From Flavobacteriaceae bacterium CG_4_10_14_3_um_filter_33_47 (GTDB lineage Bacteria > Bacteroidota > Bacteroidia > Flavobacteriales > Flavobacteriaceae): a DNA stretch of 64,000 nt. Below, one piece after another: positions 35,844 to 42,093 of the stretch (position 1 is the stretch's first letter; every line of letters starts with the position of its first letter). Both the position numbers and the translations under genes were made by a program. The DNA lies in NCBI GenBank assembly GCA_002784145.1, contig PFKE01000064.1:1-64000 (forward strand), read 5' to 3'. The notes beneath the pieces are model-generated. The model searched no databases. It had not been told where the DNA came from and saw nothing but the letters and a program-made list of their open reading frames with translations.

Positions 35844-37742
35844 ATGAGTGATGCTTTAAAACATGAATGCGGCATAGCTGTTTTAAGACTTTTAAAACCA
35901 TTGGAGTTCTACAAAGAAAAATACGGAAGTGCTTTCTATGGTGTCAATAAAATGTATCTTATGATGGAAAAACAGCACAATAGAGGTCAAGATGGTGCTG
36001 GTTTTGCAAGTATTAAATTAGACACCAATCCTGGAGAACGCTATATAAGCAGAATTCGTTCCATAGCACAACAACCCATTCAAGACATTTTTGCTCAAAT
36101 AAATCAGCGAATCAATAAGGAGTTTTCTGAAAACCCTGAATATGTTGACAGTGTACACCTTCAAAAAAAGAATATCCCTTATATTGGCGAACTTTTCTTA
36201 GGCCATGTTAGATACGGTACGTTTGGAAAAAACAGTGTTGAAAGTGTTCACCCTTTTTTAAGACAAAATAATTGGCAACACAGAAACCTTATCCTAGCGG
36301 GTAATTTTAACATGACCAATGTTAAAGAATTATTTCAGAACCTGATCGATTTAGGACAGCATCCCAAAGAATATACGGATACTATTACCATTATGGAAAA
36401 AATTGGTCACTTCTTAGACGATTCTGTCAGTAAAATTTACAAAGACTTAAAAAATGAAGGATATAGCAAAAATGAATGCTCTCCTCTGATCGCCGATAGG
36501 TTAAATGTTGCTAAAATGCTAAAAAGAGCTGCCAAAAATTGGGATGGTGGCTATGCCATGGCAGGATTATTAGGCCATGGAGATTCTTTTGTTTTGCGCG
36601 ACCCAGCCGGCATTAGGCCTGCTTTTTATTACAAAGACGATGAAATTGTGGTGGTAGCCTCAGAACGACCTGTAATACAAACGGTTTTTAATGTAAAGTA
36701 TGAAGATGTTAAGGAATTAGAACCTGGGCATGCAATCATTACCAAGAAATCTGGAAAAACAGCCATTAAAAAAATATTAAATCCTCTAGAACGAAAAGCT
36801 TGTTCTTTTGAGCGAATTTATTTTTCAAGAGGAAGTGATGCCGATATTTATCAAGAACGTAAAATGCTTGGCAGATTATTGATGCCTAAAGTACTGGACG
36901 CTATTGAAAAAGACATTAAAAACACCGTGTTTTCTTTCATCCCTAATACAGCTGAAACCTGCTTTTTTGGCATGATAGAAACCGTTGAAGAGTTTCTTAA
37001 TAAAAAGAAAACAAAAGCTATTTTAAGTGGCACAAGAAATTTATCAGCAGAACGCGTTACAGAGATTTTATCAGAAATGCCTCGAATTGAAAAAATTGCC
37101 ATTAAAGATGTTAAATTAAGAACCTTTATTACTGAAGATAGTAGCCGAGATGACTTAGTAGCTCACGTATATGATGTAACTTATGGCGTCATTAAACCTA
37201 CAGATAATTTGGTGATTATTGATGATAGCATTGTTCGTGGCACTACGTTAAAGATGAGTATTATTAAAATGTTAGACCGATTAAAACCAAAAAAAATAAT
37301 CATTGTTTCATCGGCACCACAAATACGCTACCCAGATTGTTATGGCATTGATATGGCAAACCTAGAAAGTTTGATAGCTTTTAGGGCTGCCTTAGAGCTT
37401 CTTAAAGAATCCAATCAATATCATAAAGTAGAAGAGGTTTATAAAAAATGTGTTGAGCAAACAGATTTAGAAGATAAATATGTTCAAAACTTTGTTAGAG
37501 AAATTTATGACCCATTTACAGATGAGCAAATTTCAGATAAAATAGCAGAGTTACTTACCGGCGATAATGTTACGTCTGAAATAAAAATAATTTTTCAATC
37601 TGTAGAAAATTTACATCAAGCATGTCCAAAACATTTGGGTGATTGGTACTTTACAGGTTTTTACCCAACTGTTGGAGGAAATAGGGTTGTTAATCGTGCT
37701 TTTATTAACTTTTATGAAGGCAATAAAAAAAGAGCCTATTAA
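35844..37742 (+). CDS. PurF-like amidophosphoribosyltransferase, long Bacteroidota type
   Basis: 632 residues, clearly longer than the about 480 of ordinary PurF. The N-terminal class II glutaminase domain has Cys9 in HECGIAV, so an eight-residue leader would have to be removed to expose the catalytic cysteine. EKQHNRGQDGAGFAS and GHVRYGTFG are typical glutaminase-domain motifs. The C-terminal phosphoribosyltransferase domain has the PRPP loop VIIDDSIVRGTT at about 457-468. It would form phosphoribosylamine from PRPP and glutamine, the first step of purine synthesis, or a related reaction. Ordinary purF is not in this window, so whether the two coexist cannot be told here. Confidence 0.82.
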   Translation: MSDALKHECGIAVLRLLKPLEFYKEKYGSAFYGVNKMYLMMEKQHNRGQDGAGFASIKLDTNPGERYISRIRSIAQQPIQDIFAQINQRINKEFSENPEYVDSVHLQKKNIPYIGELFLGHVRYGTFGKNSVESVHPFLRQNNWQHRNLILAGNFNMTNVKELFQNLIDLGQHPKEYTDTITIMEKIGHFLDDSVSKIYKDLKNEGYSKNECSPLIADRLNVAKMLKRAAKNWDGGYAMAGLLGHGDSFVLRDPAGIRPAFYYKDDEIVVVASERPVIQTVFNVKYEDVKELEPGHAIITKKSGKTAIKKILNPLERKACSFERIYFSRGSDADIYQERKMLGRLLMPKVLDAIEKDIKNTVFSFIPNTAETCFFGMIETVEEFLNKKKTKAILSGTRNLSAERVTEILSEMPRIEKIAIKDVKLRTFITEDSSRDDLVAHVYDVTYGVIKPTDNLVIIDDSIVRGTTLKMSIIKMLDRLKPKKIIIVSSAPQIRYPDCYGIDMANLESLIAFRAALELLKESNQYHKVEEVYKKCVEQTDLEDKYVQNFVREIYDPFTDEQISDKIAELLTGDNVTSEIKIIFQSVENLHQACPKHLGDWYFTGFYPTVGGNRVVNRAFINFYEGNKKRAY

Positions 37743-37760: not shown

Positions 37761-37840
37761 GGGGCACTTTATCCGTAAAAATCACATTTAATCTAAAAAA
37801 AGTGCTGTTTATCTAAAAAATAAATTTTTTATCTAAAATA
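37761..37840. repeat. four 20-bp-phased TTTATCTAAAA repeats
   Basis: ATCTAAAA occurs at 37791, 37811 and 37831, exactly 20 bp apart, and a degenerate ATCCGTAAAA sits at 37771, again 20 bp earlier. Each is preceded by TTT or TTA. The phasing of about two helical turns suits repeated binding of one protein on one DNA face. The array ends 5 bp before the -7-like element of small-RNA unit 1. Confidence 0.75.
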
Positions 37841-37854
37841 CATATAAATTGGTA

Positions 37855-37929
37855 TCACCATAACATAAGTAGGTTAAGTTCATGGTAGATTTGGGGCAAA
37901 AAAAGGTGAACTTCTGTTCGCCTTTTTTT
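37855..37929 (+). ncRNA. putative small RNA, unit 1 of a tandem pair
   Basis: A 75-bp unit nearly identical to 38063-38137: the first 48 bases differ at one position. It contains ACCATAA and CATGGT, which can pair as a 5' stem, a GTAGATTTGGGGC single-stranded stretch, and a terminator hairpin GGTGAAC-TTCT-GTTCGCC ending in seven T. Relative to unit 2 one hairpin base changes A to G and keeps a wobble pair. TAAATTGG at 37845-37852 is a near match to TAnnTTTG at the same distance as in unit 2. No start codon or frame is shared between the units. It is probably a short structured transcript; the target is unknown. Confidence 0.6.
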
Positions 37930-38052
37930 ATGCCCTTCTTAATTTTTGAAGCCTTCCTTTTTGTTTCGTTTTTTAAAATCCTTTACTTTCCTCGCTTAAG
38001 CTAATATTTTAGTAGTTTGGCTAAAATATTTTTGCAGTTGTTGTTAGCTATA

Positions 38053-38060
38053 TACTTTTG
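38053..38060 (+). promoter_or_regulatory. -7 element of small-RNA unit 2
   Basis: TACTTTTG matches TAnnTTTG exactly and ends 2 bp before the conserved unit begins. A TTG at 38032-38034 is 18 bp upstream, an acceptable -33 distance. Confidence 0.65.
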
Positions 38061-38062
38061 GC

Positions 38063-38137
38063 TCACCATAACATAAGTAGGTTAAGTTTATGGTAGATTT
38101 GGGGCAAAAAGGTGAACTCTCGTTCACCTTTTTCATT
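38063..38137 (+). ncRNA. putative small RNA, unit 2 of a tandem pair
   Basis: The second copy, 208 bp after the first. Here the 5' stem is perfect (ACCATAA with TTATGGT, 7 pairs) and the terminator stem is perfect over 12 pairs (AAAAAGGTGAAC, loop TCTC, GTTCACCTTTTT). The exact -7 element immediately upstream and the terminator at the end define a transcript of roughly 70-75 nt. It ends before the minus-strand sodB terminator. It could correspond to a described flavobacterial RNA motif; I cannot check this here. Confidence 0.65.
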
Positions 38138-38218: not shown

Positions 38219-38827
38219 TTATTTTGCTTCAGCATAACGTCTTTCAACTTCATTCCAGTTAATGACATTAAAAAATGCATTGATATAATCCGGACGACGA
38301 TTCTGATAATTTAAATAATAGGCATGTTCCCAAACATCAAGTCCTAAAATGGGTGTTCCTCCACAAGAAACTCCTGGCATTAATGGGTTATCTTGGTTTG
38401 GTGTTGAACAAACTTCTACTTTTCCGCCTTTGTGAACACATAACCATGCCCAACCAGAACCAAAACGTGTGGCAGCAGCCTTGCTAAAGGTATCCTTGAA
38501 AGCATCTACAGAACCATAAGTTTCAATGATCGCGTCTTTTAATTCTCCAGATAAATATCCTTTTCCTTCAGGTTTCATAACATCCCAAAATAAGGAGTGA
38601 TTATAAAATCCGCCGCCATTATTTCTAACGGCAGCATTATTCATATCTAAATTTGTAAGAATATCTTCAATAGATTTACTTTCTAATTCGGTTCCCGCAA
38701 TAGCAGTATTTAAATTGTTTGTATAACCTTGGTGATGTTTAGTATGATGTATTTCCATGGTGCGTGCATCAATATGAGGCTCTAAAGCGTCATATGCGTA
38801 TCCTAACTTAGGTAATTCAAAAGCCAT
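38219..38827 (-). CDS. sodB: superoxide dismutase (Fe/Mn type)
   Basis: 202 residues. Metal ligands are His27 (in [11 protein letters not shown]), His77 (FYNHSLFW), Asp164 and His168 in the signature DVWEHAYY (164-171). The enzyme turns superoxide into oxygen and hydrogen peroxide in the cytoplasm. Whether iron or manganese is used cannot be decided from these residues alone; the gene symbol is chosen by convention. It is a single gene with its own promoter-like element and terminator. Confidence 0.93.
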
Positions 38828-38937: not shown

Positions 38938-41900
38938 ATGCAAATTACACGTTTTATGCAGCATAGTCCAGCTTTCTCTATTTATAATGCCTCTGCCGGC
39001 AGCGGAAAAACATACACGCTTGTAAAAGAATACCTTAAAATACTCCTTAGCTCAAAACAAAAAGAGCCTTTTAAAAATATTTTAGCCATTACATTTACCA
39101 ACAAAGCCGTTGCTGAAATGAAAGCGCGTATTATTGATACATTAAAAGAGTTTTCCTCAAAATCTATTTTAGAGAACTCTAACAGTATGTTTGATGCGCT
39201 TTGTGATGAATTAAAAATGGATGCGATTTCACTTCATTTAAAATCACACAAACTTTTAGGTAGCATTATTCATAATTATGCGGCTTTTGATATTTCAACC
39301 ATAGACGGTTTTACCCATAAAATAATAAGAACTTTTGCACACGACTTAAAACTGCCTTTTAATTTTGAAGTTGAATTAGACCAAGACAGTCTTTTAAATG
39401 AAGCTGTTGATAGCTTAATTTCTAAAGCCGGCATTGACAAAAACTTAACTAAGGTGTTGGTGGATTTTGCTATTGAAAAGGCTGATGATGATAAAAGTTG
39501 GGATGTGTCTTTTGATTTTAATAAGATTGCAAAGTTACTGGTTAATGAAAATGACATTCCATTTATTGAGATCTTAAAGGATAAGACTATTGAAGATTTT
39601 AATGCCCTTAAGGTTCTTTTAAAAAAACAGATTCAACATACAGAAACAAACATTATTGATACCGCCCAATCTACGTTAACTCTAATTGAAGCATGTGGAT
39701 TAGAATTTAAAGATTTTTCAAGAAGTACACTTCCTAATCATTTTAAAAAAGCTTCTGAATTAGATTTAGATAGACTCTATGATAATAAGCTTGAAGAAAA
39801 TATTATAGAGCGTACCGGTATTTACACAAAAACTTTAAATGCAGATTTAGCAAATACCATTGATTCTATTTTACCAGACATAGAAACGTTTTATAAAACC
39901 ATGAAGTCTTTAGTGTATCATCTTAAATTTTTAAAAGCATTTTATAAAAACATCACGCCTCTGTCTGTTTTAAGCGCTATTAATAACGAACTAAAATCTA
40001 TTAAAGAGGAGCAAAATAAAATGCTAATTTCTGAATTTAATACCATTATTAGCAACGAAATTAAAAATCAACCAACGCCTTTTATTTATGAGCGCATTGG
40101 AGAAAAATTTAAACATTATTTTATTGATGAATTTCAAGATACGTCTGTATTGCAATGGGAGAATTTAATTCCTTTAATTGACAACTCACTTTCATCAGAG
40201 CACGGAACCGTTATGCTAGTTGGCGATGCAAAACAAGCCATTTACCGTTGGCGAGGCGGAAAAGCAGAACAATTCATAAATTTGTTTAACGAGAAAGAAA
40301 ATCCGTTTCAAATCAAGCCAAACGTTGATAATCTTCCAACCAACTACCGCAGTTACAAAGAGATTGTAAATTTTAATAATCTTTTTTTTAAGTTTATTGC
40401 CTCAACCGTGTTTAATAACAAAGACTATGAAAAGCTTTACAATAAGGCTTCGCAAAATAACCATGCAGAAAACGATGGCTATGTCAATATGTCCTTTTTA
40501 GAAATTACCAGAGACGATGATAAGGACAATCTTTATGCCTTAAAAGTGTTTGAAACCATTAAAACTTGCCTTAGTAATAACTTTAAACTTGAAGATATTT
40601 GTATTCTGGTAAGAAAGAAAAAAGAAGGCGTTGCTATTGCCAACTATTTAAGCCAAAATAACATTCCTATCATATCTTCAGAAACTTTACTGCTCAATAA
40701 TTCTGAAGAAGTTCAATTTATAAACAACCTGTTAAGGCTTTTAATTCAACCTAAAAACAACGAAATAAAAGCAAGCGTATTAAGTTATTTAGCGGACTTG
40801 TTTCAAGTAAAAGATAAACATAATTTTTTTATCAATCATATTCATTTACCTGTAAATCAATTATTTAAAAGCTTTGCTGTTTTTGAAGTGTTTATTGAAT
40901 CTTATTCATTATTACAACATTCGCTTTATGATTTAATAGAAACCATCATTAGGCAATTTCATTTAGTAAAAACGTCTGACGCCTACATTCAGTTTTATTT
41001 AGACATTGTTTTAGATTTTACTCAAAAAAAAGGTTCTGATATTTCTGGTTTTTTAGACTATTTTGAAAAGAAAAAAGAATCCTTGAGCATTGTGTCTCCT
41101 CAAGGACAAAATGCAGTTCAAATCATGACCATTCACAAATCTAAAGGGCTTGAGTTTCCGGTAGTTATTTTTCCATATGCCGATTTAGATATTTATTCAG
41201 AATTAGAGCCTAAAGAATGGTTTTCTTTAAATCATGAAACTTATAACGGGTTTTCCCATACCCTTTTAAACTATACTAAAGATTTTGAATACTTTGGAGA
41301 TGAAGGGTTGCGTATTTTTAATCAGCATCAATCAGAACAAGAATTAGACAACATCAATCTGCTTTATGTAACCTTAACAAGAGCTATTGAGCAATTGTAC
41401 ATTATTTCAAAAAAGGAAATGTCTGCCAAAGGAGAGATTAGTGAGAAAAAATATTCGGGTTTGTTTATTAATTACTTGAAAAGCATTGGGTTGTGGAATG
41501 ATATTGATGTGACTTACAGTTTTGGAACACAAGAAAAATCTCCCAAAGAACCAAAGACTCAAAAATTTATTTTGGAAGAGCAAGCGTTTCATTCTACCGC
41601 AAAAGAAGAGCATGCCATTAATATTGTAACAAGTTCAGGCTATTTATGGGATTCATATACAGAAGACGCTATTGAAAAGGGCAATCTTATTCATACCATC
41701 ATGTCTAAGATTAAAACTAAACATGATATTGATTCTGTTTTAAATGAGTTTTTGGAGTCTTCAATCATTGATGAAGAACAAAGGGTAAAACTAAAAAAAA
41801 TAATCTTGGAAATTGTAGAACATTCAAGGCTTATAGAGTGTTTTAATCCAGAACATATCATATACAATGAAAGAGATATTATTACAAAAGATGGTCAAAT

Positions 41901-42093
41901 TTTAAGACCAGATAGAGTTGTTATAAATTCAAAAAACGACGTCATTATTTTAGATTATAAAACAGGCCAAGAAGATAAAAGTCATTTGCAACAATTAATA
42001 GGCTACCAAGATGTTTTAGAGTCCATGAACTTAAAAGTCATCAAAAAAATTCTTGTCTATATAAATGATACTATTACAATAAAAGAAATTTAA
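38938..42093 (+). CDS. AddA/RecB-like UvrD-type helicase-nuclease
   Basis: 1051 residues. SF1 helicase motifs: Walker A ASAGSGKT (18-25), [14 protein letters not shown] (motif Ia), FIDEFQDTS (about 396-404), [14 protein letters not shown], and [16 protein letters not shown] (about 730). At the C-terminus is a PD-(D/E)XK nuclease core RPDRVVI then VIILDYKTG (about 990-1010). This is the layout of AddA or RecB, which processes double-strand DNA ends for RecA. The AddB-like partner is at 44860, separated by kbl and an OmpA-type gene. An in-frame ATG at residue 7 is an alternative start. Confidence 0.88.

Follow-up and report, generated by a model that had tools for sequence, protein, structure and literature searches.

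The window, a 64-kb stretch of DNA, carries two small-RNA units between purF and sodA (Table 1). Both units span about 70 nt and are made up of a TAnnTTTG-like -7 box, a CCAT..ATGG hairpin with the invariant CATAAGTAGGTTAAGTT, a terminator hairpin and a run of T's. In F. psychrophilum the -7 box occupies -12 to -5 (PMC9723704), and the unit 1 RNA would start near position 37857. Divergent from sodA, at 38938-42093, lies a gene for a large UvrD-type helicase with a C-terminal PD-(D/E)XK nuclease match, similar to AddA.

Table 1. Features of the purF-sodA locus and the gene of the candidate regulator
Feature	Position	Strand	Basis or remark
purF, upstream neighbour of small-RNA locus	35844..37742	+	GATase domain matches; long ORF
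Half-site R1, GCACTTTATCCGTAA	37764..37778	+	13.4 bits; about -93 to -79 from inferred unit 1 start
Half-site R2, ACATTTAATCTAAAA	37784..37798	+	12.4 bits; register 57/58
Half-site R3, GCTGTTTATCTAAAA, core site	37804..37818	+	16.5 bits; register 37/38
Half-site R4, ATTTTTTATCTAAAA	37824..37838	+	10.5 bits; overlaps place where -33 box would be
-7 box of unit 1, TAAATTGG	37845..37852	+	Matches TAnnTTTG; conserved in aligned promoters
Small-RNA unit 1	37857..37929	+	CCAT..ATGG hairpin with invariant CATAAGTAGGTTAAGTT, then terminator hairpin and T run
Unit 2 half-site R2, TCGCTTAAGCTAATA	37992..38006	+	Weak, 5.2 bits
Unit 2 half-site R3, GTAGTTTGGCTAAAA	38012..38026	+	13.6 bits; 37 bp from -7 box
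-7 box of unit 2, TACTTTTG	38053..38060	+	Sequence
Small-RNA unit 2	38065..38133	+	Sequence
sodA (Fe/Mn superoxide dismutase), downstream neighbour	38219..38827	-	Sod_Fe_N/Sod_Fe_C
Orphan LytTR regulator, 231 aa	G000:C21:16248-16940		Same genome as window

The units have the predicted attributes of a bacterial small RNA: a promoter of their own, a conserved RNA, an intrinsic terminator and no conserved ORF. Compensatory changes occur at seven pairs, all within the terminator hairpin, and a one-base indel (GGTAGAT/GGTAAGAT) disrupts any reading frame. The 5' part of the RNA, about 45 nt, is almost invariant, and genomes hold one to six copies, usually in tandem. The window's relatives with the same RNA are named Flavobacteriaceae, and about 90% of the genomes sampled in this family (108/121) possess it. 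A search of the window against Rfam 15 returned no family at gathering score; a relaxed Rfam search gave weak matches only, far below gathering scores, and no family fits.

An earlier note on this DNA had described repeats at an exact 20-bp phase over four units, lying directly before the promoter-like box of unit 1. The 8-mer ATCTAAAA indeed recurs at 37791, 37811 and 37831, with ATCCGTAAAA at 37771; the phase is exact over the four half-site starts, and the array ends just 5' of the -7 box. The conserved unit exceeds that 8-mer, extending over 15 positions (G-[CT]-[AC]-[TG]-T-T-[TC]-[AG]-T-C-N-A-A-[AT]-A) in the fuller half-sites that we call R1 to R4. Unit 2 also has a half-site pair, which the earlier note did not mention. 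Over the 80-bp array (37768-37847), self-similarity reaches 65% at lag 20 and 60% at lag 40. The lag-20 value was not attained at that lag in any of 5000 dinucleotide shuffles, and the fraction attaining it at any lag from 8 to 40 was 0.0002. Scored with a weight matrix built from other genera only, the window's genus being excluded, the three successive unit 1 pairs rank 1 to 3 among all pairs with 20-bp spacing in the 64-kb window, both strands included, and the unit 2 pair (37992/38012) ranks 4. R1 also matches TTTATCCGTAAA upstream of sodA (inverted repeat I6); this match does not rank with the top tandem pairs, and we attribute it to chance.

Exact matching of the RNA core against GTDB genomes gave at least 118 stretches. 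From the GTDB matches listed and the relatives' loci, we gathered 286 copies with upstream DNA, 262 of them non-redundant. Half-sites lie 37/38 bp from the TAnnTTTG -7 box in 182 of these 262 copies and 57/58 bp from it in 158. The R1 register (77-79 bp) is occupied in 23 copies and the R4 register (16-17 bp) in six, essentially all from the window's genus; other registers are near zero. The spacing between R2 and R3 is 20 bp in 143 copies and 21 bp in 10. Two sites, R2 and R3, are the family rule, and the array of four is an embellishment of the window's genus. Spacing and position are kept across genera while other bases vary, which answers the comparison of relatives proposed in the earlier note: in aligned promoters the half-sites are conserved and the letters between them carry little information. 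Conserved sites, spacing and promoter distance, together with variable spacers, support the claim that proteins bound side by side may control the small RNA. Relatives with the RNA but no repeats, which the earlier note had set down as evidence against this claim, do occur, as a minority only (15 of 139 loci are without R2 or R3 above threshold).

Two explanations that dispense with a regulator can be weighed against these alignments. The window copies carry A-runs 20 bp apart just 5' of the promoter, and A-tracts in helical phase might act by DNA bending or as an UP element, with no sequence-specific regulator. We rejected bending by A-tracts and regard this explanation as very unlikely, since the invariant letters of the half-site are C, TT and G, not A-runs. 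The C is present in 100% of the sites collected, an invariance that choosing sites by a score threshold favours; position 13, after the core, is split almost evenly between A and T, and many copies interrupt the A-run. The region is also AT-rich, and the array might reflect chance or drift in low-complexity intergenic DNA. This idea has practically no credit left, being excluded by the shuffles, by the leave-genus-out matrix and by conservation in many genera; the conserved registers are a sufficient refutation in themselves.

The promoters themselves bear on the direction of control. A -33 TTTG is absent from 229 of the 262 copies collected; in the other 33, it stands 18-20 bp 5' of the -7 box. 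A terminal-copy class, CTTTGTTATTTCTCACAATACCAGTAATTTAG, mostly without LytTR-like sites, accounts for about 13 of these 33. Copies with the -33 TTTG tend to be without sites (Fisher p ~1e-5, ignoring phylogeny), the terminal-copy class being one lineage that counts as one or few events, not 13. The mutual exclusion is not absolute: in the window's unit 2, TTTG and an R3 site occur together. Members of the terminal-copy class (L047, L080, L104, L110 and similar, each the last copy) combine the -33 TTTG box with a variant RNA, GATTTGGGACGAAAAGGG, and are probably expressed independently of the regulator.

A missing -33 box is what one would expect if a bound protein replaces the -33 contact, and its absence from most promoters suggests activation. 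The earlier note had left activation and repression open; the near absence of the box tips the balance towards the former. The R2/R3 pair is centred at about -56 from the inferred start, upstream of the core promoter, and by E. coli nomenclature both sites would qualify as class I activator positions. The dominance of registers 37/38 and 57/58, with others near zero, also counts for activation by a LytTR regulator. Could the bound proteins instead block the small-RNA promoter? In the window's genus, R4 and the -33 region overlap; at acpP and at the candidate regulator's own gene (see below), the sites likewise overlap promoter boxes; and a LytTR repressor is known in CoxC, with three repeats over the -35 box (PMC11347149). 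We nevertheless consider repression unlikely, for R2 and R3, the sites shared family-wide, are both 5' of -33, and with no -33 box in most copies the unaided promoter would be weak. Given its overlap with the -33 region, R4 could act differently from R1-R3.

Which protein would bind the array? Direct repeats two turns apart are typical of LytTR regulators (PMC11347149, PMC4847170, PMC6193735), whose sites consist of 9-bp direct repeats with 10-13 bp between them (PMC11347149); a separation of 11-13 bp is given in PMC4847170, which places 10 bp at the short edge. Our array follows this operator rule, with direct repeats of a 10-bp core, GCATTTCATC, plus 10-11 bp, that is, a period of 20/21 bp, and the core resembles the proven YpdB LytTR half-site GGCATTTCAT (PMC4847170). 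From 13 genomes we retrieved 90 LytTR loci; upstream DNA was scored for 84 genes. The tandem motif stands directly upstream of seven (score 13.7-20.6), all from one orthologous group, and the remaining genes score at most 6.1. This group is an orphan response regulator located between priA and the rpsF-rpsR-rplI operon, with a receiver domain (PF00072, 67.8 bits) and a LytTR domain (PF04397, 70.7 bits); its identity is 91-100% in close genera, against 62-67% in other genera. All 19 close orthologues (18 with at least 91% full-length identity and one cut by a contig end) have the tandem motif upstream, where it overlaps the promoter boxes. Among distant orthologues, several have the motif and others do not, three without a located start being left unscored; in two genomes (G027, G036) the RNA is kept and the regulator promoter is without the tandem motif.

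The regulator and the RNA also occur together. In 121 family genomes, nearly one per genus, sequence search alone found both in 104, the regulator only in one, the RNA only in four and neither in 12. The four RNA-only genomes (G026, G070, G112, G146) have a gene for a divergent LytTR protein at the corresponding place between priA and rpsF, and after this synteny correction the counts become 108, one, zero and 12 (Fisher p ~1e-15, ignoring phylogeny; the genomes are related and p overstates their independence). The synteny check covered discordant and RNA-negative genomes only, and one contig that begins too near rpsF (G139) was left unjudged. In three genomes (G010, G086, G087), priA directly adjoins rpsF and the RNA is absent too. 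The single regulator-only genome (G016) keeps purF and sodA as neighbours, has lost the RNA and lacks the motif in the regulator promoter. A terminator-like hairpin with GATTTGGGG lies there between purF and sodA (L341), possibly a remnant of the small RNA, or a chance occurrence.

In four small genomes (L322, L355, L358, L366), the syntenic regulator has strongly diverged and the RNA persists, a point against control by this regulator. The receiver mostly looks degenerate, the usual acidic and phospho-acceptor residues missing in most, and phosphorylation control may have been lost.

The motif is found at other sites as well. A 20-bp pair is present in 12 of 38 acpP promoters, in Maribacter/Muricauda/Zobellia-type genera, and absent from the acpP of the window's own genome. 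The acpP sites (L117, L094, L052, L145, L046) occupy the R3/R4 register, overlapping promoter boxes, and acpP is a possible second set of targets. At least three LytTR-like half-sites 20-21 bp apart precede a SixA-like gene by about 23 bp (L182), and a similar series occurs at L189; these may belong to the priA-rpsF regulator or to another LytTR regulator. A LytTR kinase-regulator operon of another family has a tandem match upstream of the kinase gene (G040, L217), which speaks against an exclusive link to the priA-rpsF group. In a pattern scan for further tandem sites, forward matches were only modestly above the reversed-pattern control, and many such matches are therefore chance.

These observations leave room for a different assignment, in which the array is the operator of another LytTR or direct-repeat regulator and the priA-rpsF regulator is merely one more target of that protein. 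Genomes have several LytTR genes (six LytTR matches in the window's genome, whose other members could share the site), LytTR-like tandem sites also lie upstream of unrelated genes, such as those for secreted proteins and the SixA-like gene, and some distant orthologues have no upstream motif while their RNA keeps it. We judge this assignment improbable in the face of the near-perfect co-occurrence of the priA-rpsF regulator and the RNA, including their joint absence at intact priA-rpsF junctions, and because, of the 84 genes, those in other LytTR groups are all without the motif directly upstream. A tandem motif in the own promoter of one LytTR group only, combined with this co-occurrence, favours the priA-rpsF regulator. 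We thus consider it likely, from comparative sequence evidence, that the phased motifs are LytTR half-sites, most likely those of the priA-rpsF regulator, activating the multicopy small RNA.

Under this activation by the priA-rpsF regulator, its molecules would line up next to one another along one face of the DNA, bound between about -93 and -33 from the start, and recruit RNA polymerase to a promoter with a good -7 box and mostly no usual -33 box, which would switch on the multicopy RNA of about 70 nt. The regulator probably controls itself too, through the same repeats in its own promoter.

What the RNA would do can be approached from its invariant 17-mer. An antisense search allowing up to two mismatches matched only the two sRNA genes in the window's own genome, and no recurrent antisense target for the 17-mer was evident, making a short seed or a protein partner more likely. 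A tentative possibility, which we put forward with limited confidence, is a near-universal Flavobacteriaceae module in which an orphan LytTR regulator and its dedicated sRNA, gained and lost together, would tune growth through protein sequestration or short seed pairing, the regulator of small genomes acting independently of phosphorylation. The growth-tuning part stems from the ribosomal neighbourhood (rpsF-rpsR-rplI) and from the acpP promoter in some genera.

Little is known about small-RNA regulation in Flavobacteriia. Here a single motif ties one unassigned regulator, present in about nine tenths of the family genomes sampled, to a small-RNA family that Rfam does not contain and that hardly varies across about 100 genera. 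The promoter is of a type where activator sites apparently take over from the absent -33 box, and the regulator-target pair is open to direct testing. LytTR-driven regulatory RNAs are already known; neither Rfam nor the papers searched contained the present pair, the RNA family or the promoter design.

LytTR regulators drive regulatory RNAs in Staphylococcus (AgrA and RNAIII) and in Clostridium perfringens (VirR and VR-RNA). As in these systems, direct repeats about two helical turns apart lie upstream of the promoter of a regulatory RNA, where by analogy the regulator would bind. The AgrA pair is centred near -60 (PMC4227749), against about -56 for R2/R3 here. Unlike AgrA and VirR, the regulator described here has no neighbouring kinase gene and stands as an orphan between priA and rpsF, and the RNA differs in being short and multicopy, with up to four sites and a Bacteroidota-type promoter.

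The YpdB operator of yhjX in E. coli has a direct repeat, GGCATTTCAT, nearly identical to our GCATTTCATC, with a period of 21 bp as read from the printed oligonucleotide (PMC4847170); however, it comprises two sites only, and its target yhjX is protein-coding. On the RNA side, Rfp18 of Flavobacterium psychrophilum is likewise an sRNA, conserved in the genus Flavobacterium; by description, the basis of this comparison, it has a third stem-loop pairing with targets, whereas the RNA here has two hairpins (PMC9723704). The FopS covariance model (RF04319) gave no significant match (20.6 bits, E=1, against a gathering score of 56). Even so, the FopS and GibS sRNAs of Bacteroides (RF04319, PMC11697453) resemble our units in being short and multicopy, in ending with a terminator hairpin and in belonging to the same phylum, and an extra regulator is suspected at their promoters (PMC11697453).
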